Shown: positions 8,584-56,357 of the stretch, one piece after another
Position numbering within the stretch: the stretch's first letter is position 1
How the letters are laid out: every line of letters begins with the position of its first letter
Source: Clostridiales bacterium
Lineage (GTDB): Bacteria > Bacillota > Clostridia > Lachnospirales > Lachnospiraceae
Direction of reading: 5' to 3'
Assembly (NCBI GenBank): GCA_012519695.1
Contig: JAAYPT010000060.1
Location: forward strand, 1-64,000
DNA length: 64,000 nt
Made by a program: the position numbers and the translations under genes
The notes under the pieces: generated by a model
Told to the model about the DNA's origin: nothing
What the model saw: the letters and a program-made list of their open reading frames with translations, nothing else
Database searches by the model: none

Positions 8584-8584
8584 G

Positions 8585-24357: not shown

Positions 24358-24385
24358 TATAATTCGTTAGGTAAGCCTAACTGAC
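24358..24385 (+). promoter_or_regulatory. Promoter with DtxR-like iron box
   Basis: TATAAT (24358-24363) is followed by the dyad GTTAGGTAAGCCTAAC (24366-24381) with perfect 6-bp arms. TTAGGTAAGCCTAACTGAC matches about 15 of 19 positions of the DtxR/IdeR consensus. It is positioned just after the -10, where a metal-loaded repressor would block the transporter genes. The -35 is weak. Confidence 0.6.
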
Positions 24386-24435
24386 TTTTAGGTTTAAAAT
24401 AAAATATTTCAATAAGGGATTATAAGGAGGAAGTT

Positions 24436-26217
24436 GTGAAGAAATTAGATGAAAAAACATCAAAGAAGAGTACCATCTCCTGGTTAATTGAATTTGCAGG
24501 AGAAAAAAAGCTTCATTACATCTTATCAGTAATATTTGCTGTATTGGGTGTGCTGGCAAGCTTGATTCCATATATAATTATGGGAACAATGATTTCACAA
24601 TTAATGAAAGGGAATACAGACTGGAGTTATTACCTCAATTTAATGGTGATAATTATAATCGCATGGGTATGCCGTGTGCTTCTTCATGCAGTATCTACGA
24701 CATTTTCACATGTAGCAACATTTCAGGTCTTAGGCTCTATGCGAAAGAGAGTATGTGAAAAGTTAGTTCGCATGCCGTTAGGGGCAATCAAAGATATGCA
24801 GTCAGGATCACTTAAAAATATTTTGGTAGAAAGAATTGACAGTATAGAAACAATTCTTGCCCATATCGTGCCTGAATTTACAGCAAATCTTATGGCACCA
24901 ATTTGTTTATTCATATATATGCTTAGGATTGATTGGAGAATGGCATTGCTTTCATTAGTTACGATACCGCTTGGAATGATAGCGTTTATGGGAATGATGT
25001 CAGGCAATGAAGAAAATCAGAAAAATGCTATAACTAAAACAAAAATTTTAAATGATACTGCGGTTGAATATATAAATGGTATAGAAGTAATTAAAGCCTT
25101 CGGAAAATCCAAAAGCTCATATGAGAAGTTTGTAATTGCTGCTAAGGAAGGTGCGGCATGCTACATAAACTGGATGAAAAGATGCAATATTTATATGAGT
25201 CTTTCTATGGCTATTTTGCCATCAACGTTAGTAACAGTTTTGCCATTTGGTGCAATGTTTGTAAAAAATGGAAGTTTAATGGCAAGTGATTTTATTATGT
25301 TGATTCTTCTTTCTATGGGGCTGATTACACCATTAATTACAATAAGTACATATATGGATGACCTTAATAAAATGAATCTTATAGTAAGTGAAGTGACAAA
25401 TATTCTTGAAGCAAAAGAGTTAGATAGACCGGAGAAGACCGTAAAACGTCCGGAAAGCTTTGATATAACGCTTCAAGATGTTCGATTTGCTTATAAGGAA
25501 AAGGAAGTACTTCATGGTATTAATATGGAGATTCCGGAAGCAAAGGTAACTGCTTTTGTTGGACCAAGTGGAAGCGGTAAATCTACAGTAGCAAAGCTGA
25601 TTGCTGGTCTTTGGGATATTGCGGAAGGTCAGATTAAAATTGGCGGAGTTGACATTAAGAATATTGCAACTGAAGATTATAACAGAATGATTGCATATGT
25701 ATCACAGGATAATTATTTGTTTAATGAAACCGTTATGGATAACATTAGAATGGGTAATCTTAATGCAACAGATGAACAGGTGATTGAAGTTGCAAAGGCA
25801 AGTGGTTGTCATGAATTTATAGAAGGTTTGGAAAATGGCTATCATACAATAGTGGGTGATAGTGGAGGACATTTGTCTGGTGGAGAACGTCAGCGTATTT
25901 CCATTGCACGAGCAATGTTAAAGAATGCACCAATTATTATTCTTGATGAAGCAACGGCTTATACTGATCCGGAAAATGAAGCAATTATTCAGGATTCTGT
26001 TGCGAAACTTGTTCAGGGTAAAACGTTGATAGTGATTGCACATCGTCTTTCTACAATTATGGATTCTGATAGAATTTATGTTATTAAAAATGGAAAAGTG
26101 GATTCTATGGGAACGCATGAACAGTTGCTTGCTCAGAATGGACTTTATGCATCTATGTGGAATGCACATATAGCGGTAAAGGATGAAAAAGAGGAAGGAG
26201 GCAGTGAAAATGTTTAG
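24436..26217 (+). CDS. YbtP-like fused ABC transporter (TMD-NBD)
   Basis: 593 residues, GTG start behind AAGGAGGAAGTT. Six membrane segments within residues 25-320, then an ATPase domain: Walker A GPSGSGKST, Q-loop VSQDNYLFNE, signature LSGGERQRISIARAM and Walker B IIILDEATA. It overlaps the next transporter gene by 8 nt, so the two likely form a heterodimer like YbtP/YbtQ, which import the metal-yersiniabactin complex. Import is inferred from that relationship; the fold alone would also fit export. Confidence 0.85.
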   Translation: MKKLDEKTSKKSTISWLIEFAGEKKLHYILSVIFAVLGVLASLIPYIIMGTMISQLMKGNTDWSYYLNLMVIIIIAWVCRVLLHAVSTTFSHVATFQVLGSMRKRVCEKLVRMPLGAIKDMQSGSLKNILVERIDSIETILAHIVPEFTANLMAPICLFIYMLRIDWRMALLSLVTIPLGMIAFMGMMSGNEENQKNAITKTKILNDTAVEYINGIEVIKAFGKSKSSYEKFVIAAKEGAACYINWMKRCNIYMSLSMAILPSTLVTVLPFGAMFVKNGSLMASDFIMLILLSMGLITPLITISTYMDDLNKMNLIVSEVTNILEAKELDRPEKTVKRPESFDITLQDVRFAYKEKEVLHGINMEIPEAKVTAFVGPSGSGKSTVAKLIAGLWDIAEGQIKIGGVDIKNIATEDYNRMIAYVSQDNYLFNETVMDNIRMGNLNATDEQVIEVAKASGCHEFIEGLENGYHTIVGDSGGHLSGGERQRISIARAMLKNAPIIILDEATAYTDPENEAIIQDSVAKLVQGKTLIVIAHRLSTIMDSDRIYVIKNGKVDSMGTHEQLLAQNGLYASMWNAHIAVKDEKEEGGSENV

Positions 26218-27949
26218 AGCATTAAAGAAGTTTTTTGAGTTTTCGGGACCTGTAAATAAGAAAAAATTTTATGGTGCAATTATTTTGGGTGTAATAAAAA
26301 CAATGGTTGAAGTAACCAAAGTGGCTGCTATTGGAATTTTGCTTCACCAGATGCTGAATGATGGAATAACAACAGCAGGAATTTGGGCAAGTTTTCTCAT
26401 AATAGTAGTAGGTATTATTTTACAGACACTAATCAGTAATAAAACAACAATGCTTCAAACAGAAGGTGGATACGAGACTTGCGCAAATAAACGTATCGAA
26501 ATAGCAGAACATATGAGATATCTGCCGATGGGATATTTTAATGCCAACAGTTTAGGAAACATTACATCAGTTGCCACCAATACAATGGAGGGATTGGCAG
26601 ATATAGCAACAAGAGTTGTTATGATGTGTACCCAGGGAATGATAACCACAGGTGTTATTACAGCATTTATAATTGTATATGATTACAGAGTGGGGTTAGC
26701 TACAGTGATTGGAGTACTCCTGTTTTATATCGTCAATATGATGCTTCAAAAGAGTTCAAAGAGTATTGCAGCAGAGAAAAATGAAGTGGATACAAATTTG
26801 GTTGGGCAGGTTATTGAGTATGTTCAAAACATTACAGAAGTTAAGAATTATAATCTTGCGGGTATTCGGGCAAAGAAACTTAATACAGCCATTGAAAAAA
26901 GCGCAAAAACAAATATAAAGTCGGAATTGTCATTTTTGCCTTTTATAACACTTCAAAATGCTATCAGTAAACTTACAGGTGTTGCAATATGTATGCTTTC
27001 AGTATGGTTTTATATTAACGGCACAATGCACATTGAAAAAACAATGTTACTTATGCTGTGTTCCTTTATGATTTATTCTGGACTGGAAGTTGCCGGAGTT
27101 TACTCAAGCTTACTTCGTACTGTGTCTATGGGAGTAGATAAAGCCAATGCCATATTAGAAACACCGACCATGGATATTGAAGGCGAAGACATTACACCTG
27201 CTAATCATGATATTGATCTTAAGAATGTTGTTTTCTCATATGACCAAAAAAGGGTAATTGATGGAATAAGTATTCATATTCCGGATAAGTCCACAACTGC
27301 AATTGTAGGACCAAGTGGTGGAGGAAAGACGACACTTTGTCATTTGATTTCCAGATTTTGGGATGTAGAAAGCGGTCAGGTATTGCTTGGCGGAGTGGAT
27401 GTCAAGAAATATAGTATGGATAGCCTTATGAAAAATTTTAGTTTTGTATTTCAGAATGTATATTTGTTCAATGATACAATTGCGAACAATATCAGGTTTG
27501 GTGCACCGGATACACCGATGGATAAGGTGATTGAAGCAGCTAAAAAGGCATGCTGCCATGATTTTATTATGCAATTACCGAATGGATATGAAACAATAAT
27601 CGGTGAAGGCGGAGCATCATTGTCAGGAGGAGAAAAGCAAAGAATTTCAATTGCCAGAGCTATTTTAAAAGATGCGCCAATTATCATACTTGATGAGGCA
27701 ACTGCTAATGTGGATCCAGAAAATGAAAAGGATCTTGTATCTGCCATTGATGAGTTGACAAAAGAAAAGACAATAATTATGATAGCTCACAGACTAAAAA
27801 CGGTTAGAAATGCAGATAATATTTTGGTAATAGAAAAAGGAAAAATTGTTCAGCAAGGAAATCATAATGAACTTATGAAGCAAGAAGGTATCTATAAGAG
27901 ATTTATAGATATGCGTGAGCGAGCTGTAAGCTGGAAATTAGCCAGATAA
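26210..27949 (+). CDS. YbtQ-like fused ABC transporter (TMD-NBD)
   Basis: 579 residues. ATG 26210 is chosen because GGAGGCAGTGAAA precedes it; the open frame starts earlier at 26183. Membrane domain in residues 15-300, then Walker A GPSGGGKTT, VFQNVYLFND, signature LSGGEKQRISIARAI, Walker B IIILDEATANVDPE and the switch His in IAHRLKT. Partner of the gene before it. The AraC-type gene converges on it, 6 nt from its stop. Confidence 0.85.
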   Translation: MFRALKKFFEFSGPVNKKKFYGAIILGVIKTMVEVTKVAAIGILLHQMLNDGITTAGIWASFLIIVVGIILQTLISNKTTMLQTEGGYETCANKRIEIAEHMRYLPMGYFNANSLGNITSVATNTMEGLADIATRVVMMCTQGMITTGVITAFIIVYDYRVGLATVIGVLLFYIVNMMLQKSSKSIAAEKNEVDTNLVGQVIEYVQNITEVKNYNLAGIRAKKLNTAIEKSAKTNIKSELSFLPFITLQNAISKLTGVAICMLSVWFYINGTMHIEKTMLLMLCSFMIYSGLEVAGVYSSLLRTVSMGVDKANAILETPTMDIEGEDITPANHDIDLKNVVFSYDQKRVIDGISIHIPDKSTTAIVGPSGGGKTTLCHLISRFWDVESGQVLLGGVDVKKYSMDSLMKNFSFVFQNVYLFNDTIANNIRFGAPDTPMDKVIEAAKKACCHDFIMQLPNGYETIIGEGGASLSGGEKQRISIARAILKDAPIIILDEATANVDPENEKDLVSAIDELTKEKTIIMIAHRLKTVRNADNILVIEKGKIVQQGNHNELMKQEGIYKRFIDMRERAVSWKLAR

Positions 27950-27955
27950 GAAGAA

Positions 27956-28345: not shown

Positions 28346-28453
28346 ATCATAATTACTCCTTTTGTAAAGAAAGTTAATCATTAGGACAATTTGGTCGAAT
28401 TCCAATGTGTTTCATTGATTTTAATATATGCATGGGATATAATTTAAAACCAG

Positions 28454-28469
28454 GTTAGTTGACACTAAC
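28454..28469. promoter_or_regulatory. Second iron-box-like dyad in the divergent promoter region
   Basis: GTTAGTTGACACTAAC, perfect 6-bp arms and the same GTTAG-N6-CTAAC pattern and length as at 24366. It contains TTGACA (28459-28464), with GATAAG 17 nt later for the forward operon. On the reverse strand TTGACT-17-TATTTT ends right beside it for the AraC gene. Confidence 0.55.
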
Positions 28470-28573
28470 TAAAATAGCATAGATAAGTTATAAAGTCAAA
28501 TATGGTGATACAATTACAAGCTATTTGAAAACAAAAATTTATAGAGGCTAGGTTAATAGGAAGGATGGAAGTT

Positions 28574-29542
28574 ATGAAAAAAGTCAGTGCGTTGGTAGTG
28601 ATATTGGTTTTGATGGTTTCATCATGTATAGGTTGCGGAAAAACAAAGTCCAAAGAAGATTACACAATAAAAATAGGTGTGCTTAGTACAGCAGATAGCA
28701 TACCTTTATATGTTGCAAGCCAGGAAAAAACTTTTGAAAGAAATGGATGTAAAGTAGAACTTGTAGAATTCGGTAGTGCATCAGATCAGTCAAAAGCGAT
28801 GGAGGCAGGCGAACTTGACGGCATGATGACCGATATGGTTGTGCAATGCCTTGTGAAAAAAGGAGGTGTTGATCTTAAGACAGTTGCAATTGCACTTGGT
28901 GCGGAAGTTACAGAAGGAAAATTTCGCATTGTAGCTTCTCCAAACAGCAAGGTAGATTCTATAGATAATCTTGCCGGAAGTAAAGTTGCAATTTCGGAAG
29001 GGACGATGATGGAATTTTTAGTAGATTCCTATTGTGATGAACTTGGAATTGATATTGACAGTATCGAGAAAGTTAGTATACCGAGTCTATCATTACGATA
29101 TGAAACACTTATGGAAGGGAATGATGTGGATTGTGCAATTTTGCCTGAAACATTAAATGATTATGCTTTACAAAATGGTGCAAAACTAATTATTGATGAT
29201 ACCACTCTTCAGAATAACTATTCTAATAGTGTGATAGTTTTGCGGGATTCATTTATAAAGGAACAAAATGAATTAGCGCAGGCATTTGTGAAAGGGTATA
29301 ACGAAGCGATTGATAACATTGAAAATAATCCAGACAAGTACAAAGAGTTAGCACTTGAGGTTGCAAGAGTTCCGGAAGATATGGAAGATATATATGTTCT
29401 TCCACACTATACCAAAGGAGCAGTACCAACAGAGGAAACGGTTGATAAAATTGTAGACTGGATGGTGAAAAAAGGATTGCTGACAGAGGGATATTCATAC
29501 AAAGAGCTTGTTGCAGATGAGTTGCAGAACAAGACAAATTGA
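28574..29542 (+). CDS. SsuA/NMT1-type substrate-binding lipoprotein
   Basis: 322 residues from ATG 28574 behind AGGAAGG. Signal peptide with lipobox SCIGC. The mature part (IKIGVLSTADSIPLYVASQE, FGSASDQSKAMEAGELDGMM, SKVAISEGTMMEFL) is typical of NMT1/THI5 and SsuA-like binding proteins, which carry taurine, sulfonates, thiamine precursors or small aromatics. It is the first gene of the long operon. Its ligand is unknown; in this locus an aryl starter acid or a sulfur compound is a reasonable guess. Confidence 0.85.
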   Translation: MKKVSALVVILVLMVSSCIGCGKTKSKEDYTIKIGVLSTADSIPLYVASQEKTFERNGCKVELVEFGSASDQSKAMEAGELDGMMTDMVVQCLVKKGGVDLKTVAIALGAEVTEGKFRIVASPNSKVDSIDNLAGSKVAISEGTMMEFLVDSYCDELGIDIDSIEKVSIPSLSLRYETLMEGNDVDCAILPETLNDYALQNGAKLIIDDTTLQNNYSNSVIVLRDSFIKEQNELAQAFVKGYNEAIDNIENNPDKYKELALEVARVPEDMEDIYVLPHYTKGAVPTEETVDKIVDWMVKKGLLTEGYSYKELVADELQNKTN

Positions 29543-29570
29543 TATTCTGCATTTAAAGGAGAAAATAATA

Positions 29571-30317
29571 ATGCTTGAATTACATGGGATAGAAAAAGAA
29601 TATGCTCAGGGGAATAATGCATTTACTGCACTTCACAATATTAATTTAGCAGTGCCAACAGGAGAATGTCTTGCAGTAGTGGGAAAAAGTGGGTGTGGAA
29701 AGACTACATTATTAAATATTATTGCAGGATTAACAAAGCCCAGCAGAGGGACTGTAATGTATAACAAAAAAGAGATAAGTCAACCTAACCGGGATATAGC
29801 GGTTGTGTTTCAGCATTATGGACTTTTCCCATGGAAAACGGTAAGGGAAAACTTGAAGCTGCCTCTACAACTTAAACATGAAAAAGAACGATATGGAGAG
29901 GTTGAGAATATGCTGGAAAAATTAGAACTTACAGAGCATGCGGATAAGTATGTATGCCAGTTATCTGGTGGACAGAGGCAAAGAGTTGCGATAGGAAGAG
30001 CCTTACTTTGCAGAAAAAAAGTTCTTCTTATGGATGAACCGTTTTCTGCATTGGATCCTATCAGTCGGGAAAGGTTACAAAACAATATGCGAAAAATTTT
30101 TTCACAGAATAACATTACAGCGGTTGTTGTTACGCACAATATAAGTGAAGCAGTGTATCTTGGAGATAAGATTGCGGTTTTTTCTCGGGAAGGAAAAGAA
30201 ATTAGAAGAGTATTAGAAAACCCGGTATCAGGTATTGCGGAAAGACAGTCTGAAAAATATCTTTCTGTAAAGTATCAGGTGGAAAAAATAATGGCAGGAG
30301 AGAATGATGTTACATAG
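29571..30317 (+). CDS. SsuB/TauB-like ABC importer ATPase
   Basis: 248 residues; ATG 29571 follows AAAGGAGAAAATAATA, preferred over the open frame start at 29508. Walker A GKSGCGKTT, Q-loop VFQHYGLFPWKTVREN, signature LSGGQRQRVAIGRAL, Walker B VLLMDEPFSALDP and switch His. The PWKTV sequence after the Q-loop is typical of the nitrate/sulfonate/taurine subfamily. It overlaps the permease gene by 14 nt. Confidence 0.88.
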   Translation: MLELHGIEKEYAQGNNAFTALHNINLAVPTGECLAVVGKSGCGKTTLLNIIAGLTKPSRGTVMYNKKEISQPNRDIAVVFQHYGLFPWKTVRENLKLPLQLKHEKERYGEVENMLEKLELTEHADKYVCQLSGGQRQRVAIGRALLCRKKVLLMDEPFSALDPISRERLQNNMRKIFSQNNITAVVVTHNISEAVYLGDKIAVFSREGKEIRRVLENPVSGIAERQSEKYLSVKYQVEKIMAGENDVT

Positions 30318-31077
30318 AAGAAAAGAAATAGTAGCAACGGTATCTATTCTGATGTTATGGGAGATGTGCAGTCATCTTATGAAAAGAGAGTTTCTGCCAT
30401 GTGCAGTTGCTTCTGTAAGAGAACTATTTAAGCTGATCGCAGATGGAACCCTGATTCAGCATTTTTTGACAAGCTTTTATAGAATCGGTATAGGTACAGT
30501 AGCTGGAATGCTTATAGCGGTGCCGGTAGGACTGGTTATTGGTCAGAGTCAAAGACTTAATAACTATTTTGGAACCATTCTTAACATATTATATCCGGTA
30601 CCTAAAGTGGTATTTTTACCAATAATTGTAGTTGCAATGGGAATCGGTGATTTGCCTAAAATTTTTCTTATAGCAGTTGTATTGTTTTTCCAAGTCACCG
30701 TAATTGTAAGAGATGCATCGGTCAATATTCCGGCAGAGCTATCAAGAACAATGCATGCGTTAGGGGCAAATAATATGCAATATATGTATCATTTAGTGTT
30801 TTTGGGGTGCCTTCCGGATATTATGACTGCATTAAAAGGAACAATAGGTGTCTCAATGGCGATGTTATTTATAACAGAGAATTTTGCATCCACAAGCGGA
30901 CTTGGATATTATGTTTCGCGATGCATGGATAGCAGAGATTATGAAAAAATGTATGCAGGGATATTGCTTATGATAGCACTTGGTCTGTTTTTATATGGTC
31001 TTGTTGAAATGACTGAAAAAAAGGTGTGTAAATGGAAAATACTTGAAAATACTACAAAAACCCAGGAGGAAATGTGA
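30304..31077 (+). CDS. SsuC/TauC-like ABC importer permease
   Basis: 257 residues, about six membrane segments with the inner-membrane permease loop NIPAELSRTMHALGAN. Start at ATG 30304 or 30307 inside the end of the ATPase gene. Its stop overlaps the start of the acetyltransferase gene (ATGATGA). Forms the importer with 28574 and 29571. Confidence 0.86.
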   Translation: MMLHRRKEIVATVSILMLWEMCSHLMKREFLPCAVASVRELFKLIADGTLIQHFLTSFYRIGIGTVAGMLIAVPVGLVIGQSQRLNNYFGTILNILYPVPKVVFLPIIVVAMGIGDLPKIFLIAVVLFFQVTVIVRDASVNIPAELSRTMHALGANNMQYMYHLVFLGCLPDIMTALKGTIGVSMAMLFITENFASTSGLGYYVSRCMDSRDYEKMYAGILLMIALGLFLYGLVEMTEKKVCKWKILENTTKTQEEM

Positions 31078-31667
31078 TGAAAAGAATACAAACGATATTA
31101 GACGCAATTGCAAGAGGAGAAGAATTTTGCATTTATGAGTGCCCGGAAGGGTATCAGTATCTTTTGGAGGTTATAGAAAAGTGTACAGAGTACAATCAGT
31201 TAAACCCGCTTACGCAAGGAGAAGAACAGATTAAACTTTTAAAAGGACTTTTTAAGAAAACAGGAGATTTTCTTATGGTTACGCCACCATTTCATTGTAC
31301 TGTTGGAGGAACGATTGAAGTAGGGGAGAATTTTGAATGCAGTTACAATGTTACCATGCAAGATTTGGGAGGAATAAAAATAGGAGACAATGTTATGATT
31401 GGCCCGGATGTGTCTATTAATACATCTGGTCATGCGCTTGAATGGGAAAGAAGAATAGAGGGATGGTCATATGCTAATCCAATTACAATAGGAGACAATG
31501 TGTTTATTGGGGCCGGTTCGGTATTATGTGCCGGGGTAAAGAAAGGTTTACATATAGGAAATAATGTAACAATTGGAGCAGGGAGCGTTGTGACAAAAGA
31601 TATACCGGATAATGTGTTAGCTGCCGGAAATCCATGCAGAGTGATTAGAAAGCTTGGTGGAGAGTAG
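31074..31667 (+). CDS. Maa/LacA-type hexapeptide O-acetyltransferase
   Basis: 197 residues. The N-terminal helical part is followed by a left-handed beta-helix: GGTIEVGENFECSYNVTMQD, IKIGDNVMIGPDVSINTSGH (catalytic His), ITIGDNVFIGAGSVL, VTIGAGSVVTKDIPDNVLAA and GNPCRVIRKL. Likely acetylates a sugar or hydroxyl with acetyl-CoA. With the glycosyltransferase 5 nt downstream it suggests that the product, or a sugar on it, is tailored. A general maltose acetyltransferase captured by the operon is the alternative. Confidence 0.82.
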   Translation: MMKRIQTILDAIARGEEFCIYECPEGYQYLLEVIEKCTEYNQLNPLTQGEEQIKLLKGLFKKTGDFLMVTPPFHCTVGGTIEVGENFECSYNVTMQDLGGIKIGDNVMIGPDVSINTSGHALEWERRIEGWSYANPITIGDNVFIGAGSVLCAGVKKGLHIGNNVTIGAGSVVTKDIPDNVLAAGNPCRVIRKLGGE

Positions 31668-31672
31668 AAAAA

Positions 31673-32920
31673 ATGAAAATAGTTGCATTTGTGGTTGGCT
31701 CGGATGGCGATGTATTCCCTTTTATTGCGCTGGGAAAGGAAATGCAAAAACGAGGCCATATTTTTCAAATTGTTGCGTTTGAATGTTATAGGGAACGAAT
31801 CGAGAAGCAGGGAATAGTTTATGGAAAATTGCATGGAAACCCGGAAGAAATGATGCAGAAAATGTTATCAGACCAAGAGAAAGGACCGGGAGTTTTGAAT
31901 GCGATCAAAGAATTGCTTGGAAAATATCCGGAGCTATATGAGGATTTTAAAGAACCGTGTCAGTGGGCAGATGTAATCATGTATATGCAGTTCGGTGGAT
32001 TGGCTTATCATTTTGCAGAAAAACTAAATAAGCCGTGTGTAAGAACATTTGCTCTGCCGTATGATCCTACCAAGTTATATTCGCCACTATTTCCGTTTAT
32101 AAAACGCAATTCCATCAGATGTAAATACAGTTATGTAATGAGTGATGTCATGATGAATTGGGCATCACTTGCTCTGGTAAATAACTGGAGAAAGAGAATG
32201 AAATTAAGAAAATGGCATCTGTTTAGATTTTATAAAAAGATGAATGGAAAACCTATATTAACGTTATATCAATATAGTAATGCTTTGTTTCCGAGAGATA
32301 AAACCTGGAAGAAACATATATATGTTACGGGTGAATGGAATATGGAGCAAGAAGATGAGAAAGAGGAACAAATCGATAATAAATTAAAAGAATTTGTTAT
32401 GAGTGGAGAACCACCGTTGTATATCGGATTTGGAAGCATGATTTCTGAGCGGGTTCATGAACTTCAGAATAAATTTTTAGAGGCACTTGAAATAACAGGG
32501 CAAAGAGCTGTATTTGTATCAGCCTGGACGAAGTTTGATAGAAAAAAGTCCCTGCCTAATGTTTTTTATACAGAGTTTGTGCCGTTTACATGGTTGTTTC
32601 ATCATGTAAGTGCAGTAATTCATCATGGTGGGGCAGGAACTTTAAGCCTTGCTGTCAGAGCTGGAAAACCTAATCTTATACTAGCCTTTGGAGGAGATCA
32701 GTATTTTAGAGGAATGCAGGCATACGAGGCTGGAGTGGCACCTAAACCAATATATCTTCCAGAAGAAGAAATCACGGCAGATGACTTAGTAAGGCAGCTG
32801 AGGGAAATAGAGAAAGAAAAGTATAAGGTTGCAGCAGTAAAAGTAGCTGAACAGATGGAAAATGAGCATGGTTGCAGTAGAGCATGCGATATTATTGAAG
32901 AATATTTTGGAGCGAAATAA
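31673..32920 (+). CDS. GT1-type glycosyltransferase (UGT/MGT-like)
   Basis: 415 residues. The N-terminal acceptor domain (KIVAFVVGSDGDVFPFIALG) and C-terminal donor domain (SAVIHHGGAGTLSLAVRAGK, LAFGGDQYFRGMQAYEAG) match enzymes that glycosylate natural products and sterols, a group that also contains IroB of salmochelin synthesis. Its position between the importer genes and the NRPS suggests a glycosylated metallophore or intermediate. The sugar donor cannot be read from the sequence. Confidence 0.8.
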   Translation: MKIVAFVVGSDGDVFPFIALGKEMQKRGHIFQIVAFECYRERIEKQGIVYGKLHGNPEEMMQKMLSDQEKGPGVLNAIKELLGKYPELYEDFKEPCQWADVIMYMQFGGLAYHFAEKLNKPCVRTFALPYDPTKLYSPLFPFIKRNSIRCKYSYVMSDVMMNWASLALVNNWRKRMKLRKWHLFRFYKKMNGKPILTLYQYSNALFPRDKTWKKHIYVTGEWNMEQEDEKEEQIDNKLKEFVMSGEPPLYIGFGSMISERVHELQNKFLEALEITGQRAVFVSAWTKFDRKKSLPNVFYTEFVPFTWLFHHVSAVIHHGGAGTLSLAVRAGKPNLILAFGGDQYFRGMQAYEAGVAPKPIYLPEEEITADDLVRQLREIEKEKYKVAAVKVAEQMENEHGCSRACDIIEEYFGAK

Positions 32921-32924
32921 TATA

Positions 32925-38336: not shown

Positions 38337-38356
38337 TATTTGGGAAAGGATATTTT

Positions 38357-39418
38357 ATGAAAATTGGAGTTTTGGGTGCAACAGGACACGTTGGAAAAGG
38401 TGTCCTTCGGGTATTAGATAAAACAGATCATAAGATTAGTGCATATTATCATTCTCCGCAAAAGGCAGAAGTAATGAAAGCTGAATTCTTCGATAAAGTG
38501 ATATTTAAACACATTGATATATATGATGAAGAATTGCTTAACGGAGCATGCGGTGAATGTGACATGATTATAAATTGTACTGGACCATCAGGAAAAATTA
38601 TGAATCGAATAGCTGTTTTGTGTATGAAAGAAAATAAGATTTATATTGATGTTTCAGGAGGAAAAAAGCTGAAACAGATGATGGAAACAGAGTTTAGTTT
38701 CGGAAAAAATGGGACATGTGTACTTGGTGCTGGAATATATCCTGGGTTAACAGAAATTTTGGCAGGATATATTGTGCAAAAAAATCCCCAATTGCAGGAA
38801 CTGAAATTATATTTTTATGGAAATAGTCCTTTATCTGAAATTGCGGCATATGACATTGTAGCCGGAATGGAAGAATCTAATGGAGGAATGAGTTATGTAC
38901 GAAATGGAAAAATCACAAAATTGGCAGGCGTTGGAACAAATGAAGGAAATAAAATAGCACCATTTGACAAGCTTATTACAATGCCGGTTTTGAGTGATGA
39001 ATTTTATTCATTGGTGTGCAAAAAGAAAATACCGAAGGCTTATTTTTATCATAGTTTTCAGAATGATAAAGCACTTATGGATTTTATTATGATTAAGGCG
39101 ATGGAACAATATAAAACAGAAGAGCAAAAAAAGGCATCAGCAACTAAGATACAACAGTTATTTTTTTGTAAGGATAGACCCAAGGAAGTATGCATAATTG
39201 TTGAATATAAAATAGATGATTCCATTCATTATTTTAAATTAGAAAGTGAAGAGGACTGGAGCCTGATAACGGGCTATGTGGCTGGATTGACGGCTGTATT
39301 TTTGGCAGGAGCTGAAAATATTCATAACGGGGTTAATTATGTAGCAGAGGTTGTAGAACCGGAAGAAATAATAAAGAGCATTAATAAAATATGTCAGATA
39401 AATATGGATGAATGGTAA
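38357..39418 (+). CDS. Saccharopine-dehydrogenase-like oxidoreductase
   Basis: 353 residues from ATG 38357 behind GGAAAGGA. Rossmann start MKIGVLGATGHVGKGVLRVL, then DMIINCTGPSG and VLGAGIYPGLTEILAG, as in saccharopine dehydrogenase-like NAD(P) proteins. Inside the NRPS operon it may reduce or oxidise a ring, or supply a precursor. It is distinct from the Gfo/Idh-type reductase at 49742. The exact step is not clear. Confidence 0.75.
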   Translation: MKIGVLGATGHVGKGVLRVLDKTDHKISAYYHSPQKAEVMKAEFFDKVIFKHIDIYDEELLNGACGECDMIINCTGPSGKIMNRIAVLCMKENKIYIDVSGGKKLKQMMETEFSFGKNGTCVLGAGIYPGLTEILAGYIVQKNPQLQELKLYFYGNSPLSEIAAYDIVAGMEESNGGMSYVRNGKITKLAGVGTNEGNKIAPFDKLITMPVLSDEFYSLVCKKKIPKAYFYHSFQNDKALMDFIMIKAMEQYKTEEQKKASATKIQQLFFCKDRPKEVCIIVEYKIDDSIHYFKLESEEDWSLITGYVAGLTAVFLAGAENIHNGVNYVAEVVEPEEIIKSINKICQINMDEW

Positions 39419-39432
39419 GGGATGATGAGAAT

Positions 39433-41037: not shown

Positions 41038-41039
41038 CT

Positions 41040-49739: not shown

Positions 49740-49741
49740 AA

Positions 49742-51919
49742 ATGGCAGAAAAAGTGAAAATATTAGTTTGTGGTGCCAGGTTTGGGCAGTTTTATATGGA
49801 AGCAATCAAGAAAAATGAAAAGTATGAGCTTGCAGGAATATTAGCCAGGGGGAGTGACCTGGCTAAAGCCTGTGCAAGACGTTATGAAACAGAACTATAT
49901 ACGGACTTCGAGGAAGCTTCAAAAAATATAGATGTTGTATGTATTGCGGTAAAAACGGGAGTCCTTGGTGGAAATGGGACGGAATTAGCAATTCGTTTTC
50001 TTGAAAAAGGAATTGCAGTTATTTTGGAGCAGCCGGTTCATTATCAGGATTTGACAAAGTGCTATCGAATAGCAAGAAAATATAAAACGGCATTTCATGT
50101 GGGAAATTTGTACTTGAATCTTCCGCAGGTAAAAAGATTTTTGTCGCTTTCGGATAAACTTATGAGGAGACAGCAATTAGCGTATATAAATGTTGATATG
50201 GCTACGCAGGTTTCTTATCCGTTTATTCGTATTATGACAGAACTCTTAGGTAAGACAAATCAATTGACAATAGCAGTTTTAGAACAGGGAAATGGTATTT
50301 TTCAAACCATGAGATTAACCTGGAATGGAGTAGAAATTCAGGTAAGAGCACAGAATCAGGAGGGAAATTCAGTTTCGGATAACTGTATGCATGTGTTGTT
50401 TCAGATAACTTTGGGAACGCAAACAGGAAATTTATTGTTGACAGATGCATGTGGAACTCTTATGTGGAGAAATAGAATGGAAATCCCCTCAATTTCTTTT
50501 GTGCCAGGGGATTTAGAGAATTGTGGAACTGAAGCAATGAGAAATGAACCAGTAAAAGTAATTAGCAAAGATAAGGGCAGTTATGGTGAAATTCTTGAAA
50601 ATGTATGGACAAAGGCAGTAGATGCGGATATTGAAAAATTGCTTGAGATGAAAAAAGAAAGTAAGCTGATGGCAAAAGAAGGGGCATTAGAATTGTCGGC
50701 TTCTCAGAACTGGACAGTATTTACACAGGCACTTGGTTGTCCGGTAAAAATAGAGGAAACAGTTGTGCCGGAAAGTAGTTTTGAAGACATATTATCAGAA
50801 TATCGCACAAATGCGAGTATGATGGAAAGGTATGAGCTTCTTACAATAGAGGAAACAAAAGAGGCTGTGACTGAACTGAATAAGGCATCATTGTGGTCTA
50901 TTGTAAATTATTTTCAGGAAGAGGGGATTTTTCTTGAAGATGATAAAAAGGTCACAGAACAGGAAATTATTAACAGAATAGAGATAGACCATAAATTTGA
51001 TTTTGTTATAGACAGATGGCTCCAAATTTTGGAAAAAAATCATTTAATTAGCAGAAAGGACTTATATTATAATGCAATTAGTGGTATAATACTAAAGTTA
51101 GAAATAGCTAACCAATGGGAAAAGGCTTTGAGGTTTTGGAAAGAACGTTTGGGGACCCAAGCTGTTGGAGAATATTTTTACTCAAGTGCCATGGCTCTTA
51201 AAGAACAACTGCAAGGAAAGGTAAAAGCGAATTATCTATTATATCCACAGGGAGATAGAAAAATTGCAGATGATTTATACCGTAATACTATGATTGCGTG
51301 GTATATGAATAGAAAAATTGCCAGTGAAGTAGCAAAGCAATTTAAAATAGCGGGTAAGCTAAAAATTTTAGAAGTGGGTGCCGGTACAGGTGCAACTTCT
51401 GATGTAGTTATAGAAGAAATAAAAGCAAGGGGGTTGGAAGAAGGATTAGAGGAGTATTGTTATACCGATTTATCACCGTATTTTCTTGTTCAGGCCTCAG
51501 ATAGGTACAATCAGGCAAAATGGTTAGTTACCAGAGAATTAGATATTAATAAGGCACTTGACGAACAGGGAATAGCGGAACAGTCTTATGACATAATTAT
51601 TGCAGCAGGAGTAATAAATAATGTGGATGACACCGTATTTACATTAATGAATTTGGCAAAATGTCTGAAGCAAGATGGAAAGATATATGTGTCAGAGGCT
51701 ATTGGGGAATCTATACAAATGCTTATTTCACAAGTTTTCATGATGCAGAAGGCAACAGATGAAAGAGGAGGAGTAAATCAGACATTTATGTCAAGAGAAA
51801 TGTGGGAAAAAGCATTTGCAGGTGCTAACTTGAAGTTGGAAAAGATGATGCCGGATGAGGGTCATAAATTGCAGGCTTTAGAACAGAGTGTATTTGTTCT
51901 TAGAAGGGATGGCGTATAG
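49742..51919 (+). CDS. Thiazolinyl-imide reductase fused to a methyltransferase
   Basis: 725 residues. Residues 1-360 match the Gfo/Idh-type thiazolinyl imide reductases Irp3/YbtU and PchG (VKILVCGARFGQFYMEAIKK, VILEQPVHYQDLTKC, AFHVGNLYLNLPQ). Residues about 370-725 look like the methyltransferase inserts of the NRPSs, here standing outside an A domain, with intact LEVGAGTGATSDVV, YTDLSPYFL and IIAAGVINNVDD. In pyochelin and yersiniabactin synthesis the reductase is separate. The fusion suggests reduction of one thiazoline to thiazolidine followed by N-methylation. The ATG follows the NRPS stop by 2 nt. Confidence 0.85.
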   Translation: MAEKVKILVCGARFGQFYMEAIKKNEKYELAGILARGSDLAKACARRYETELYTDFEEASKNIDVVCIAVKTGVLGGNGTELAIRFLEKGIAVILEQPVHYQDLTKCYRIARKYKTAFHVGNLYLNLPQVKRFLSLSDKLMRRQQLAYINVDMATQVSYPFIRIMTELLGKTNQLTIAVLEQGNGIFQTMRLTWNGVEIQVRAQNQEGNSVSDNCMHVLFQITLGTQTGNLLLTDACGTLMWRNRMEIPSISFVPGDLENCGTEAMRNEPVKVISKDKGSYGEILENVWTKAVDADIEKLLEMKKESKLMAKEGALELSASQNWTVFTQALGCPVKIEETVVPESSFEDILSEYRTNASMMERYELLTIEETKEAVTELNKASLWSIVNYFQEEGIFLEDDKKVTEQEIINRIEIDHKFDFVIDRWLQILEKNHLISRKDLYYNAISGIILKLEIANQWEKALRFWKERLGTQAVGEYFYSSAMALKEQLQGKVKANYLLYPQGDRKIADDLYRNTMIAWYMNRKIASEVAKQFKIAGKLKILEVGAGTGATSDVVIEEIKARGLEEGLEEYCYTDLSPYFLVQASDRYNQAKWLVTRELDINKALDEQGIAEQSYDIIIAAGVINNVDDTVFTLMNLAKCLKQDGKIYVSEAIGESIQMLISQVFMMQKATDERGGVNQTFMSREMWEKAFAGANLKLEKMMPDEGHKLQALEQSVFVLRRDGV

Positions 51920-51920
51920 A

Positions 51921-52682
51921 ATGAGTGAATGGTTTCCGTTTCAGGATAATATGGGAAAAAAGCGTAAATTGTTGTATTGTTTTCATCATGCAGGTGGTAC
52001 AGCATCAGTGTATCGAAGTTACATAGGAGCATCGAACGATTTCACAGTACTTCCGGTAGAGTTGCCGGGAAAGGCAGTAAGAATAAAAGAAGATTTTATT
52101 GATGATATGAACGAACTGACGAATCAGATTGCCAATGCAATCTCATCTCATAGTGGAAATAGAGAGATATATCTTTTCGGACATAGTATGGGAGCAATTA
52201 TTGCCTTTTTAGTTGCAACAAAGTTAGAAAAAAAGTACCACAGAATACCAGAGGCATTGATTGTGGCAGGCAGACAACCACCTCATTTTCCCAATGTAGA
52301 TAGGTATCATTCTGATATGGGAACAGAGGAACTTTTAACGGAAATGATTCGGATAGACGGAGCACCCGAATATTTGCTTGAAAGCAAAGAATTACAGAAT
52401 TTTGTTCTGCCAATGATAAGAAGGGATTACAAGCTAAATGAATCTTTTCAGTATAATAATGAGCATGTATCCTGCCCGATATTTGCGTATGCGGGCAGTG
52501 ATGATGCAGATGCTTCAAAAGATGTAATGCAGTATTGGGCGGATGTAACGTCAGGAGAATTTTATCTGGATGAGATATCTGGAAATCATTTTTTTGTGAC
52601 AAGTGAAGAAAGTCATTTTTTTGAAAAAATGGAAAACGATTTATGCAGGATAGAATTTATGGAGCGTAAGTCTGCCGGTTAA
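51921..52682 (+). CDS. Type II thioesterase (YbtT-like)
   Basis: 253 residues from ATG 51921, 1 nt after the previous stop. GHSMG nucleophile motif (FGHSMGAIIAF), acid in YAGSDD and His in SGNHFFV. Start region KRKLLYCFHHAGGTASVYRS is typical. Expected to clear misloaded carrier proteins. Confidence 0.88.
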   Translation: MSEWFPFQDNMGKKRKLLYCFHHAGGTASVYRSYIGASNDFTVLPVELPGKAVRIKEDFIDDMNELTNQIANAISSHSGNREIYLFGHSMGAIIAFLVATKLEKKYHRIPEALIVAGRQPPHFPNVDRYHSDMGTEELLTEMIRIDGAPEYLLESKELQNFVLPMIRRDYKLNESFQYNNEHVSCPIFAYAGSDDADASKDVMQYWADVTSGEFYLDEISGNHFFVTSEESHFFEKMENDLCRIEFMERKSAG

Positions 52683-52723
52683 AATTGTAAACAGGGCATG
52701 GAAAGGGGAAGGAGAAAGATGGC

Positions 52724-53611
52724 TTGAATGTGCATATAAAATATGCTTGCATTATAGGATGTATTGCAATCGGTCTTTTAATATATTTTAGAGCTTTAGG
52801 ATATATAATTATGTACATGAATTTTCAAAGGAAAATAAAAATGAAATCATATCATAAGGATTATCATTTTGTGGAAGAAAATCATATGCAGCTCTTAAAT
52901 GGAAGCTTTTTATCTAATGGAAACAGGTTGAAAAGTTATTTCATTACAAAGAATACCGGAAATAGTAAGCAAGTGGTTGTTTTGTCAAAAGGACATGGAT
53001 GTTTTATTACAGATTATAAAGAGATAATTACGGAACTTGTTGGGGATGGCTATGATGTGTTTTCCTTTGATATTACAGGAAGTGGAGAGAGTGAAGGTGC
53101 ATATCCGGGTGGTTATCAACAGTGGGTGATAGATTTGCAGGCTGCACTTAAGGTGGTTAAGAAGCAATATGATGATATATATATTTTGGGACACAGTATA
53201 GGAGGGTATGCAGCAGCAGCAGTGCTTAAGGATTGTGATGTGCCAATAAAGGCAGTGGTAGCTGTTGCCCCTATAAATTCAGGAACAGAGTATGCAACTT
53301 ATATGCATAAGTGCATTCCCTGTATTTTTACAAAACAAGTTTGGATTGCGATGCATAAATATGAATTGAAACATTACAAAGAATATGTGGATTATACAGG
53401 GGTAGCCGGAGTAAATGCTACGGACATTCCGATACTTATTGTACAAGGGAAAAAAGATAGGTGGGTACCTGTAAAATGTAGTATTGCAGGATATAGCAAA
53501 CAAATTATAAATTCTAATGCAAACATTCTGTTTATTGAGAAGGGTAAGCATTATTTACTAAATGATGAGAATGTTAGAAGTAACATAAGAAAATATATAA
53601 AAAATATATAA
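52724..53611 (+). CDS. Membrane-anchored alpha/beta hydrolase
   Basis: 295 residues with a TTG start (52724) after GGAGAAAGATGGC. An N-terminal membrane helix (ACIIGCIAIGLLIYFRALGY) anchors a hydrolase with GHSIGG, Asp in VQGKKDRWVP and His in KGKHYLL. The catalytic part is likely outside the membrane. By analogy with IroE, also N-terminally anchored, it could trim or release the metallophore. That is inference; a general esterase is possible. Confidence 0.75.
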   Translation: MNVHIKYACIIGCIAIGLLIYFRALGYIIMYMNFQRKIKMKSYHKDYHFVEENHMQLLNGSFLSNGNRLKSYFITKNTGNSKQVVVLSKGHGCFITDYKEIITELVGDGYDVFSFDITGSGESEGAYPGGYQQWVIDLQAALKVVKKQYDDIYILGHSIGGYAAAAVLKDCDVPIKAVVAVAPINSGTEYATYMHKCIPCIFTKQVWIAMHKYELKHYKEYVDYTGVAGVNATDIPILIVQGKKDRWVPVKCSIAGYSKQIINSNANILFIEKGKHYLLNDENVRSNIRKYIKNI

Positions 53612-53625
53612 AAGGAGAGAAAACG

Positions 53626-54222
53626 ATGAAACAGGAAATGAAACTTACAGGAAAGGATTTAATTAACATAGGTATTTATACAGCAATATTATTTGTCTTA
53701 AATTTTGTGGCAATGTTTGCGGGAATTGTACCATTTTTATGGACGATTTTGCCTGGGACAGCAGCGTTGCTTACAGCGATTCCATTTGCAATGATGAATC
53801 TTAAAGTAAAAAAACCGGGAGCGATTCTTATTATGGGAGCAATTGTCGCATTGATATATTTTGTGACAGGTCAGTTTACAGTTCTTTTATTAATTACATT
53901 TGTTGTAGCTTGTATTGCATCAGAAGCAATTCGATTTGCCTTTCACTATAAGGATACTTTTGTAACAATGACAGTATCGTTTATTGCATTTAGTTTTGGA
54001 ATGATTGGTTCACCACTTCCAATTTGGTGTTATGGTGAATCCTTTTTTACACAGATTGCGGAAAATGGTATGACAAAGGAATATATTGACACACTTAGAG
54101 GTTTTGCAACAACTGAAAATTTAATTCTCATGCTGATTTCTCCTATCATTGGCGGTATATTAGGGATGCTTATTGCAAAAGTTTTGTTTAAGAAACATTT
54201 TAAAAATGCTGGAGTAGTTTAA
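53626..54222 (+). CDS. ECF transporter S component, MptD/Trep_Strep type
   Basis: 198 residues, AAAGGAGAGAAAACG before the ATG. About six membrane segments (NIGIYTAILFVLNFVAMFAG, AILIMGAIVALIYFVTG, ILMLISPIIGGILGMLIAKV). It resembles the MptD/Trep_Strep family of S components. Family members occur near siderophore-like gene sets, including in streptococci, by my recollection. It sets the specificity of the importer formed with the next two genes. Confidence 0.8.
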   Translation: MKQEMKLTGKDLINIGIYTAILFVLNFVAMFAGIVPFLWTILPGTAALLTAIPFAMMNLKVKKPGAILIMGAIVALIYFVTGQFTVLLLITFVVACIASEAIRFAFHYKDTFVTMTVSFIAFSFGMIGSPLPIWCYGESFFTQIAENGMTKEYIDTLRGFATTENLILMLISPIIGGILGMLIAKVLFKKHFKNAGVV

Positions 54223-54223
54223 A

Positions 54224-54952
54224 GTGGAAAAAATTATGGACAGAGAGTTACAGAGTTTGAAAAAGGAAAATAAATATAAAAAATCTCTTGATCCGCGTGC
54301 AGGTATTATTATTTTATTAATATCCAATGTAGTGGTATTTATGCAGAAGGCAGCTATGGTAGGTACGATTTATGTGATTTTTATGGGAATCTTATTGTTG
54401 GTATATGGATGTCCGAAAAGTTGTATTAAATTTTACATAGTGCTACTGGGGATGATAGCAGTTCAAAGATATATCTTTCCGTATGCTCCGTCCTGGATTG
54501 TAATTTTGTTTGGAATATTTACGAATTATGGAAGAAGAATGCTTCCGTGTCTGATGGCGGGAATTATGTTGATAAAGACAAATACGATGCACAGATTTAT
54601 TCTTGCAATGAGAAAAATGAGGTGGACAGAAAGTTTGGTTATTCCCGTTGCGGTGGCAATTAGATATTTTCCGGCTATAAGAGAAGAGTGGCAGCATGTG
54701 CATGAAGCAATGAAACTTAGAAAATTATCTGTAGCAGAAAAACTGGAGGGTTGTTTGGTTCCTATGATGCTTTCAGCAACGACCACTGCGGAAGAACTTG
54801 CACAGGCAGCAGTAACGCGCGGAATTGAAAATCCGGTCAGAAAAACAAGTTATGAAGAAATTAAGATTGAATGGATGGATATTGTTTCGGTTGGATTAAG
54901 CCTAATGGTAGCTATAATAGTTTTAGTAATTGATAATAGAGGTTTATTGTAG
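54224..54952 (+). CDS. ECF transporter T component (CbiQ/EcfT-like)
   Basis: 242 residues, GTG start 1 nt after the previous stop. Membrane segments in the N-terminal half, then a cytoplasmic helical part with the coupling motif EAMKLRKLSVAEKLEG and AAVTRGIENPVRK. It links the S component to the ATPases. The ATPase gene starts right after its stop. Confidence 0.85.
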   Translation: MEKIMDRELQSLKKENKYKKSLDPRAGIIILLISNVVVFMQKAAMVGTIYVIFMGILLLVYGCPKSCIKFYIVLLGMIAVQRYIFPYAPSWIVILFGIFTNYGRRMLPCLMAGIMLIKTNTMHRFILAMRKMRWTESLVIPVAVAIRYFPAIREEWQHVHEAMKLRKLSVAEKLEGCLVPMMLSATTTAEELAQAAVTRGIENPVRKTSYEEIKIEWMDIVSVGLSLMVAIIVLVIDNRGLL

Positions 54953-56357
54953 ATGGAAAATAGTAAATGCATAGAAATTAAGGATGTATCCTTTTCTTAT
55001 CTTGACAGACAAATACTGCATAATATTTCCTTAGAGGTGAGAAAAGGAGAATGTATACTTCTCTGTGGAAAAAGTGGCTGTGGAAAGACTAGTATTACCA
55101 AGCTGATTAATGGACTTATTCCTCATTTTATAGAAGGAAGTCATATAGAAGGACAAGTATTTGTAGAAGGTGACTTGATTGCCCAAAAAAAGATGTATAT
55201 GATTGCGGAAAAAATCGGATCGGTATTCCAAAATCCAAAGAGCCAGTTCTTTTATTTGGATTCTGATAGTGAACTTGCATTTGCGTTGGAAAATAGAGGC
55301 ATTGATTCCGATAGTATGAAAAAAAAGATTGATGAGACAATTAAAAGCCTTCATATAGAGGATTTGATTCATAGAAATGTATTTTCTATGTCTGGTGGAG
55401 AAAAACAGCTTTTGGCATTTGCATCTGTTTATGCGGGAAATCCTGATATATATGTTTTGGATGAACCATCGGCAAATCTAGACAGCAATGCAATGGAAAG
55501 ACTAAAAGAACAAATCAGACTAATTTGTGCGCAAGGAAAAACTGTAATTATAGCAGAACATAGGTTGGCATATCTTTCCGAGCTACTAGACCGGGCAGTA
55601 TATATAGAAGAGGGTAGAATTAAAAGAGTATACAGTAGGGAACAGTTTATGAGTTTGTCAGAAAAAGAACTTGCTTTAATGGGGCTTCGGACTACCAAAA
55701 AAGTCGTGTCTACAATAAAGCAAGAGCGGACAGACAAGAAGCAGGATGATTGTGATTTATTAGTTGATAATCTTGCTGTAGATAGAGGTGGAAAGCGGAT
55801 TATTTCAAATATAAGTTTTGGAGTAAAAGCAGGAGAAATAGTGGGGATTATGGGCAAAAATGGTGTTGGAAAATCTACACTTTTACGATGCTTATGTGGA
55901 CTTGAAAGTGAAGCAGAGGGTCAGATTTTCTTAAACGGAAAAAGAATAAAGAAGAAAGCAAGACAAAAGCAAATCTATATGGTTATGCAGGATGTTAATC
56001 ATCAACTTTTTGGAGAAACTGTTTTAGATGAATGTGAAATGTTGTCAGATGGTGAGAATGCAGAGGAAATAATCAAAGTATTGAAACAGTTTGATTTACT
56101 TGATATGAAAAACAGACACCCATTATCTTTGTCAGGGGGGGCAAAAACAGCGACTGGTTTTAGCAGGGGCTATTCTCGGTAAAAGTAAAGTATTAGTTTT
56201 AGATGAGCCGACGAGTGGACTTGATTATGGACATATGAAAGAAGTCAGTGAACTTCTTCGAGAACTTGCAACCAGGGGATATATGATTTTAATTGTTACA
56301 CATGATACGGAATTCCTCAATGCTACTTGTGATAGAAATATAGTAATCGGTCAATAA
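54953..56357 (+). pseudogene. ECF duplicated ATPase with a +1 frameshift at G7
   Basis: Two fused ATPase domains. The first is complete: GKSGCGKTS, FQNPKSQFF, MSGGEKQLLAFAS, IYVLDEPSANLD and the switch His. The second has GKNGVGKST, then at the signature LSLSGG meets a run of seven G (56135-56141) and falls out of frame, ending at 56182. In the other frame it continues KQRLVLAGAILGKSKVLVLD, EPTSGLDYGHMKE, VTHDTE and stops at 56357. With six G the gene would be whole at 467 residues. Sequence error, phase variation and true mutation are all open. Confidence 0.8.

Follow-up and report, generated by a model that had tools for sequence, protein, structure and literature searches.

Equibactin of Streptococcus equi is modelled as a product of salicylate and three cysteines, assembled by a nonribosomal peptide synthetase (NRPS) line with one adenylation (A) domain and no polyketide synthase (PKS) (PMC3672683; all papers cited here are drawn on in part, and statements from them cover the parts consulted). 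Its production in defined medium needs added salicylate, and in the parts consulted no salicylate synthase homologue was identified in S. equi and equibactin was not identified by liquid chromatography-mass spectrometry (PMC3672683). Sorangibactin and coelibactin are described from myxobacteria, Streptomyces and Pseudomonas. Sorangibactin contains N-methyl-thiazolidines, and the active-site cysteine of its thioesterase (TE) is essential (PMC10127202). Clusters related to that of equibactin are reported, in sources likewise used in part, from C. kluyveri, C. difficile clade 3 and human-faecal Ruminococcus/Mediterraneibacter. In a Lacrimispora cluster, 28% of the genes are reported to resemble those of the characterised Brevibacillus cluster for ulbactin F/G, MIBiG BGC0002472 (PMC11316579). 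Here we describe a locus in a 64,000-nucleotide stretch of Clostridiales DNA (Lachnospiraceae; assembly GCA_012519695.1, contig JAAYPT010000060.1, positions 1 to 64,000, forward strand; hereafter the window). It is a large gene cluster that reaches from a palindrome resembling the operator of the equibactin regulator EqbA, at 24366, to coding traces at about 56354, and its product is very probably an iron-scavenging molecule made from an aromatic acid and three cysteines. It is highly likely to be an equibactin-type metallophore locus, and an accessory, iron-regulated locus of this type is, as a whole, the explanation that we consider likely to be the best one. Its really unusual part is the pocket of the ligase that selects the aromatic acid.

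The stand-alone ligase resembles salicylate- and dihydroxybenzoate (DHB)-AMP ligases of solved structure. Read at positions 235, 236, 240, 277, 304, 306, 329 and 337 (DhbE numbering), its specificity code is DYAQEGGT. The ligases of a Lysinibacillus locus and of Lachnospiraceae RGIG3798 read DYSSLGGT and DYSSMGGT, and where a locus has a salicylate synthase its ligase follows the pattern NF(C/N)(A/G/S)QG(V/I)(I/L). At positions 235, 240, 329 and 337 the locus enzyme thus has D/A/G/T, whereas the salicylate type has N/C/V/I. Position 235 is Asn in 34 of 43 ligase rows, Lys in five and Asp in three, and one row is cut. The three Asp235 (D-code) ligases form one clade in the tree of the 43 rows (Shimodaira-Hasegawa-like approximate likelihood-ratio test, SH-aLRT, 100), a quick tree without bootstrap, made after removal of four duplicate rows, with end branches of 0.5 to 1.3 changes per column. 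These ligases are just 46-49% identical and have jointly kept Asp235, Gly329 and Thr337, while Glu304 of the locus enzyme is Leu or Met in its sisters. An AlphaFold model of the ligase from its single sequence reached a predicted local distance difference test score (pLDDT) of 32 and was not used. Five ligases in other equibactin-type loci (G167, G018, L150, L151 and L152, from Anaerococcus, C. senegalense and Lachnospiraceae) have Lys235 and fall in two places of the drawn tree; Lys235 is probably another change of starter acid. One 2-Mb genome (G303) carries two equibactin-type loci, on contigs C1 and C10, with ligase codes NFCQIGSI and NFCGQGII.

The related ligase BasE offers a guide to what these residues may do. 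Its Asn242 and Ser247 contact hydroxyls, and Phe243, Val336, Val344 and Tyr346 form the pocket base near ring C4. The V336G variant favours 4-substituted salicylates, its activity rising about 89-fold with 4-methylsalicylate and about 40-fold with 4-azidosalicylate (PMC12005286). BasE numbers were equated with those of DhbE, whose Asn235 and Ser240 are named in PMC10296737, by a constant shift of 7 (242=235, 247=240, 243=236, 336=329, 344=337, 346=339), with which the residue letters agree. In this comparison Gly329 and Thr337 lie at the C4 edge, and the D clade is therefore predicted to offer space and polarity at C4. Because the pocket appears open and polar where it faces C3 and C4 of the ring, the starter would be a C4-substituted hydroxybenzoate. 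That the starter is some acid other than salicylate seems rather probable. This acid would be imported, perhaps by a substrate-binding protein (SBP) transporter encoded in the locus, rather than made. No salicylate synthase was found in the source genome, and the sole chorismate-binding enzyme found there is the anthranilate synthase TrpE (TIGR00564, 541.3 over 517.7). Among 22 related genomes, four have a salicylate synthase that scores above the cut-off, each together with an Asn235 ligase; the two D-code and five K-code (Lys235) genomes of this set gave no such hit. Ligase open reading frames (ORFs) of about 1000 amino acids (aa) in Aneurinibacillus, four Paenibacillus, Sporomusa KB1 and Anaeromicropila all have Asn235. 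The C-terminal extension of the P. popilliae ligase is a salicylate synthase (TIGR03494, 433.7 over 325.15 bits); the profile test was made on this protein, and BLAST with the extension gave matches in Sporomusa KB1, S. ovata and G421.

A starter with an amine is one alternative. Asp235 and Glu304 might form an amine-accepting pocket, and the cap would then be an amino-aryl acid such as anthranilate or aminosalicylate. The genome makes anthranilate through TrpE, DhbE has been evolved to prefer 2-aminobenzoate (PMC10296737), and BasE V336G was solved with 4-aminosalicylate (PMC12005286). We nevertheless regard such a cap as quite unlikely, since Glu304 is not kept in the sister ligases. Further, an aniline cap binds iron more weakly.

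The preferred reading, a hydroxybenzoate substituted at C4, draws on the neighbours of the ligase as well. A Methyltransf_2 enzyme adjoins the ligase in both other D-code loci, the two enzymes being 31% identical to each other. The locus in the window instead has a glycosyltransferase (GT) and an acetyltransferase, a pair that recurs in one of 33 other regions (G303a, ligase NFCQIGSI). All four loci with an O-methyltransferase (OMT) or GT have a small residue (G or S) at position 329, against two of 21 others (G or A; Fisher p 0.0012). The test covers the 25 of 34 regions that have the ligase inside, with regions of unequal length and kinship ignored, and the search for tailoring genes covered homologues of the proteins in question; G196 (a locus of the G167 type), G273 and G006 lie outside the 34 regions. 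The SBP importer has a counterpart beside the RGIG3798 ligase and is absent from the 60 kb read in Lysinibacillus, where an isochorismate synthase is present. This suggests that the two stand for import and synthesis of the starter acid, respectively. In the scheme that we propose, the extra hydroxyl of the starter would receive an acetylated sugar in this locus, whereas in both sister loci it would be O-methylated. A C4-oxygenated and glycosylated product is a tentative suggestion. The wider proposal is possible but somewhat doubtful: the clade of stand-alone ligases with Asp235, Gly329 and Thr337 may start equibactin-type lines with an environmental C4-oxygenated or aminated hydroxybenzoate, whose extra group would be O-methylated elsewhere and capped with an acetylated sugar here.

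The assembly line itself is of a familiar kind. The two NRPS proteins contain three Condensation/cyclisation (Cy), three AMP-binding, four carrier and one Thioesterase domain (Pfam), and these Condensation domains are the only ones in the 3.16-Mb genome at E <= 0.001. Every Cy domain has one copy of DxxxxDxxS. The A-domain codes, read by script, are DLYNMSMIW, DLYNMSLIW and DLYNLSLIW, and we read them as cysteine, in agreement with the table of cysteine codes in PMC3672683. Profile scans reported no PKS domain among the locus proteins. The thiazolinyl imine reductase reaches 203.5 bits with TIGR01761, above the NCBIfam cut-off of 188.8, and the best solved match of the two-module NRPS is PchE (7emy). 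A methyltransferase (MT)-like domain sits inside every A domain. Motif I of MT-like 1 has a degenerate G-x-R form in 20 of 26 aligned rows, with five rows gapped or unaligned; in the locus it reads GAGKAEYT, and that of MT-like 2 reads GSRAADDT. Comparison with PchE and HMWP2 suggests that both domains are probably epimerases, not methylases. The methyltransferase-like motif is retained in module 3 (GGGSAATS) and in the protein that fuses the reductase to a methyltransferase (GAGTGATS). The methyltransferase part of this fusion resembles PKS-type methyltransferases, for example AprA MT2, and therefore N- and C-methylation are both possible. Because of the fusion and the module-3 motif, at least one reduced ring and one or two methylated rings are predicted. 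The TE nucleophile is a cysteine (GYCMG). A cysteine TE was considered as a mark of a sorangibactin-like thiolactone, and the idea was dropped; the nucleophile is Cys in 17 and Ser in 11 of the 28 aligned TEs of the group.

From these domains we infer the following route. The ligase would charge the aryl carrier protein (ArCP) with a hydroxybenzoate-type acid, and each of the three modules of Cy, A and peptidyl carrier protein (PCP) domains would add and cyclise one cysteine, with MT-like 1 and 2 acting in epimerisation. The reductase-methyltransferase fusion would reduce and methylate one thiazoline, the module-3 methyltransferase would supply a second methyl, and the TE would release the chain through its cysteine nucleophile. 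The ATP-binding cassette (ABC) pair, which is YbtPQ/EqbKL-like, and the energy-coupling factor (ECF) importer would transport the product or its metal complex. For a product of dihydroxybenzoate and three cysteines with one reduction and two methyls, the calculated [M+H]+ is 440.0767; a hexose would raise it to 602.1295 and a further acetyl to 644.1401. With salicylate in place of dihydroxybenzoate the values are 424.0818, 586.1346 and 628.1452.

An earlier note on this DNA, made from the letters and translations, had anticipated much of this. The ligase, ArCP, three Cy domains with their motif, three A domains, TE and thiazolinyl-imide reductase that it named are all confirmed, its eye-read codes D-L-Y-N-(L/M)-S-(L/M)-I-W agree with the script reading, and no PKS has come to light. 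The YbtP/Q-like transporters are an ABC half-transporter pair (24436-27949), the added glycosyl- and acetyltransferase are present (31074-32920), and the limits it had set, 24358-56357, fit well. It was right to see a three-cysteine, aryl-capped metallophore and to point to equibactin; pyochelin and yersiniabactin do not fit. Its aryl-capped tri-thiazoline holds for the three cysteines but not as a plain tri-thiazoline, in view of the reduced and methylated rings predicted above. It went wrong in taking three cysteine modules without a PKS for a new product, since equibactin is modelled likewise (PMC3672683) and three-A-domain lines occur in other Firmicutes. The MT-like domains, the reductase-methyltransferase fusion, the second reductase, the NMT1/SsuA-type and ECF-type importers, the short AraC-type regulator, the cysteine nucleophile and the odd ligase code go beyond that note.

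The EqbA operator contains GTTAGATGTATCTAAC, its palindrome is required for binding, and in 2008 it was described as unlike other iron boxes (PMC3672683). EqbA responds to Fe2+, also to Zn2+ and partly to Mn2+, according to the parts of the literature consulted. The window has three copies of the core GTTAG-N6-CTAAC where 0.02 would be expected; one precedes the exporter operon, another the SBP operon, and the third (51097) falls within a gene. A predicted EqbA-type operator thus precedes the biosynthetic operon, as in equibactin-type loci. The pattern was derived from the window and then tested in the 33 other regions (about 0.99 Mb), where it has 29 copies in 16 regions. Nineteen of these stand close to where a labelled cluster gene begins, two are inside genes and eight have no labelled neighbour. 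Other spacings of GTTAG/CTAAC from 0 to 12 give 0 or 1 copy each. Of the 320 half-sites with the same G+C content (mean 1.26), GTTAG ranks highest, and among the full 1024 just TTTTT (36) exceeds it. Across the source genome the pattern has 18 copies and its reversed form 2. Two feoA genes on one side and a 123-aa DtxR-family gene on the other flank one of the 18, and several others adjoin genes without evident iron link. To judge from these sites, the operator core is evidently shared beyond S. equi. An EqbA-like repressor of the DtxR family, the candidate binding protein, would silence both operons when iron is ample. Contig C19 (L236-L238) carries a second Trep_Strep gene, with an AraC regulator divergent from it, as well as an ABC transporter; GTTAG-N6-CTAAC adjoins both, and these genes are possibly another iron-uptake locus.

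The operator bears on whether the product is chiefly an iron siderophore. It might be a zinc or copper ligand, or an antibiotic for which the GT provides self-protection. The related compound mupirochelin has weak siderophore activity, binds zinc and is active against an oomycete (PMC10080011), and the GT resembles macrolide and sterol GTs. The operator common to the locus, feoA and the DtxR-family gene speaks for iron and makes this alternative unlikely, but the argument leaves room for zinc, to which EqbA also responds.

The ligase match of RGIG3798 recurs at identical contig coordinates in a genome listed under the same family as the source genome, which supports Lachnospiraceae as that family. 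The reductase-methyltransferase protein has a full match in none of the 28 other genomes of the same genus; three of them match its methyltransferase part alone. The locus is therefore accessory. Across the class, the reductase has a match in 42 of 391 genomes at E <= 0.001 and in nine (own included) at E <= 1e-30, and all nine of the latter matches are nearly full length. Counting the source genome, the ligase is present at E <= 1e-80 in 12 of the 397 genomes from the family and in 9 of the 398 from the phylum. Among named genomes, a scan kept the best 80 of 139 reductase relatives, possibly missing the window's own record, and the closest reductase among these 80 is that of Lysinibacillus sphaericus OT4b.31. 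A fused reductase-methyltransferase and a two-module NRPS occur together in Lysinibacillus, Paenibacillus popilliae, P. sinensis, Paenibacillus sp. ACRRX and Aneurinibacillus. The NRPS is 2974 aa long in Lysinibacillus and at least 2860-2945 aa in the others, where it meets the locus edge. Lines with three A domains are also found in several Clostridia and Bacilli.

Several observations weigh against the reading given here. The locus has no known product, and neither, firmly, has equibactin. Of the four O-tailored loci, three fall in a single ligase clade, and the association with position 329 thus amounts to about two lineages; two loci have the small residue without tailoring, and the GT and acetyltransferase may have a different substrate. 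The sister loci with the D code also vary: RGIG3798 carries additional modules (A and Cy genes) and a pair of reductases that are not fused, and in Lysinibacillus the final module (1464 aa) shows no match to a methyltransferase. One operator copy lies inside a gene, as noted, and GTTAG-N6-CTAAC is absent from the Bacilli regions, Lysinibacillus included. The Lysinibacillus operon, with the same D code, contains a DhbC-like isochorismate synthase (TIGR00543, 297.6 over 224.75), which would suit a salicylate- or DHB-like acid. Salicylate synthase is also below the cut-off in 11 of the 15 Asn235 genomes among the 22, so that absence alone is no proof of another acid; it is the pattern expected for scavengers such as S. 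equi. The locus could then make an ordinary equibactin-like siderophore on scavenged salicylate, as the salicylate requirement and the host of equibactin would lead one to expect (PMC3672683), with the changes in the ligase being drift. Asp235 could still accept a hydrogen bond from the 2-OH. We think such an ordinary salicylate starter somewhat unlikely, because drift sits poorly with three residues kept together in ligases so far diverged, and because the synthase-bearing loci retain Asn235 and Cys or Asn at 240 (Sporomusa ovata is unreadable there).

The importer poses a separate difficulty, as its ECF ATPase gene is frame-broken near 56.1 kb, which may be true decay or an assembly error. 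Loss of function in this strain, to which the lack of a full reductase-methyltransferase match in the genus could also be ascribed, is very unlikely: none of the large biosynthetic ORFs is interrupted, contig C19 holds a further Trep_Strep gene beside the same operator, and the assembly is a 111-contig draft.

Table 1. Features of the locus, by position in the window. Genes run on the plus strand, with one short exception.
Feature	Position	Strand	Remark
GTTAG-N6-CTAAC palindrome, EqbA-type operator core	24366..24381		Precedes exporter operon; same core in the operator of PMC3672683 (parts consulted)
ABC transporter permease-ATPase half, EqbK/L- and YbtP/Q-like	24436..26217	+	
Second ABC transporter permease-ATPase half, EqbK/L- and YbtP/Q-like	26183..27949	+	
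Short AraC-type regulator (HTH_18), 149 aa	27956..28405	-	
Second GTTAG-N6-CTAAC palindrome	28454..28469		Precedes biosynthetic (SBP) operon
NMT1/SsuA-type substrate-binding lipoprotein, candidate starter-acid importer	28565..29542	+	50% identical to neighbour of RGIG3798 ligase
ABC ATPase of NMT1/SsuA-type importer	29508..30317	+	
ABC permease of NMT1/SsuA-type importer	30304..31077	+	
Maltose/galactoside O-acetyltransferase-like enzyme	31074..31667	+	
GT1-type glycosyltransferase	31673..32920	+	Closest solved relatives sterol 3-beta-glucosyltransferases
Last-module NRPS: TubC-type docking, Cy3, A3 (Cys), methyltransferase (LEIGGGSAATS), PCP, TE (GYCMG)	32925..38336	+	ORF opens at 32862; start at 32925 has GGAG upstream
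Saccharopine-dehydrogenase-type reductase, EqbM/SrbE-like	38333..39418	+	PF03435 38.1 over 25.1
Stand-alone aryl-acid AMP ligase, putative non-salicylate pocket DYAQEGGT	39412..41037	+	
Two-module NRPS: ArCP, Cy1, A1 (Cys), MT-like 1, PCP1, Cy2, A2 (Cys), MT-like 2, PCP2	41040..49739	+	
Thiazolinyl imine reductase fused to S-adenosylmethionine (SAM) methyltransferase	49742..51919	+	Intact motif LEVGAGTGATS
Type II thioesterase, GHSMG, EqbB-like	51888..52682	+	ORF limits; true start probably slightly downstream
Alpha/beta hydrolase, EqbN-like	52724..53611	+	N-terminal hydrophobic stretch judged by eye
Trep_Strep ECF-type S component, EqbHIJ-type importer	53626..54222	+	
CbiQ-type T component	54224..54952	+	
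Duplicated ECF ATPase	54953..56182	+	Frame break near 56.1 kb; similarity resumes in other frame to about 56354

Left of the locus, the window contains a large serine recombinase, a ParB-like helix-turn-helix (HTH) gene and a short MobA/VirD2-like relaxase piece (1192-2982 and 15995-17612), perhaps the remains of a mobile element. McrBC-type restriction genes (Mrr_N-AAA_5, McrC) followed by a RhuM-family gene lie at 18921-23208. A penicillin-binding transpeptidase domain protein, a BlaR1-M56 sensor and a BlaI-type repressor occupy 5401-8971.

Little is known about the siderophores of strict anaerobes. Should the starter reading be true, equibactin-type lines of Firmicutes would vary the aryl cap via the ligase pocket and an O-tailoring enzyme, and the engineered BasE V336G would have a natural counterpart. 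The product would be a glycosylated thiazoline siderophore, salmochelin-like in its logic, under a clostridial EqbA/DtxR iron regulon. A literature search for this ligase type or for a glycosylated thiazoline siderophore returned nothing fitting, which is no proof of absence. The EqbA operator before such loci and beside feoA could serve as a simple finder of iron-regulated metallophore loci in Clostridia.

Among known systems, sorangibactin and coelibactin share with the locus the cysteine TE and a saccharopine-dehydrogenase protein, while sorangibactin differs in an oxazole first ring, a cytochrome P450 and a C-terminal homocysteine thiolactone (PMC10127202). Yersiniabactin and pyochelin share the aryl ligase, the order ArCP-Cy-A-MT/E (E, epimerase)-PCP, the thiazolinyl imine reductase and the YbtPQ-like ABC pair. 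Yersiniabactin differs in its PKS module and one A domain, and pyochelin in using two cysteines where the locus has three modules (PMC3672683). The loci of P. popilliae, P. sinensis, Paenibacillus sp. ACRRX and Aneurinibacillus have the same NRPS line, Red2 and fused reductase-methyltransferase, but a salicylate-type ligase (NFC-A/S-QGVI) in the long ORF with its C-terminal extension. The apparently uncharacterised Lysinibacillus sphaericus OT4b.31 locus matches in its reductase (44%), the fusion, the order of the two-module NRPS, the D-code ligase (49%), Red2 and the type II TE. It differs in that an OMT replaces the GT and acetyltransferase, a phosphopantetheinyl transferase (PPTase) and the isochorismate synthase are present, and the transporters have the opposite orientation.

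The comparison with eqbA-N of S. equi ICESe2 was made from the description in PMC3672683, not from eqb sequences. Both loci have a ligase, an ArCP, three Cy domains with three Cys-loading PCPs, a thiazoline reductase with a Sacchrp_dh protein, a hydrolase, a type II TE, an EqbHIJ-type importer with a YbtPQ-like ABC pair, and the GTTAG-N6-CTAAC core; as far as that description goes, both lack a PKS and a salicylate synthase. In equibactin a single A domain (DLYDMSMI) serves the three PCPs, whereas the locus has three A domains, an MT-like domain in each module and the reductase-methyltransferase fusion, and EqbD has the salicylate-type code NFCGQGII. The eqbA-like regulator and PPTase of the equibactin locus have no counterpart here. 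Because the salicylate ligase code and the single A domain are absent, the locus is equibactin-like, not an equibactin cluster proper. What is new is that the same logic and operator core come with a different starter ligase, with extra tailoring (the GT and the acetyltransferase) and with an extra importer of the SBP type.

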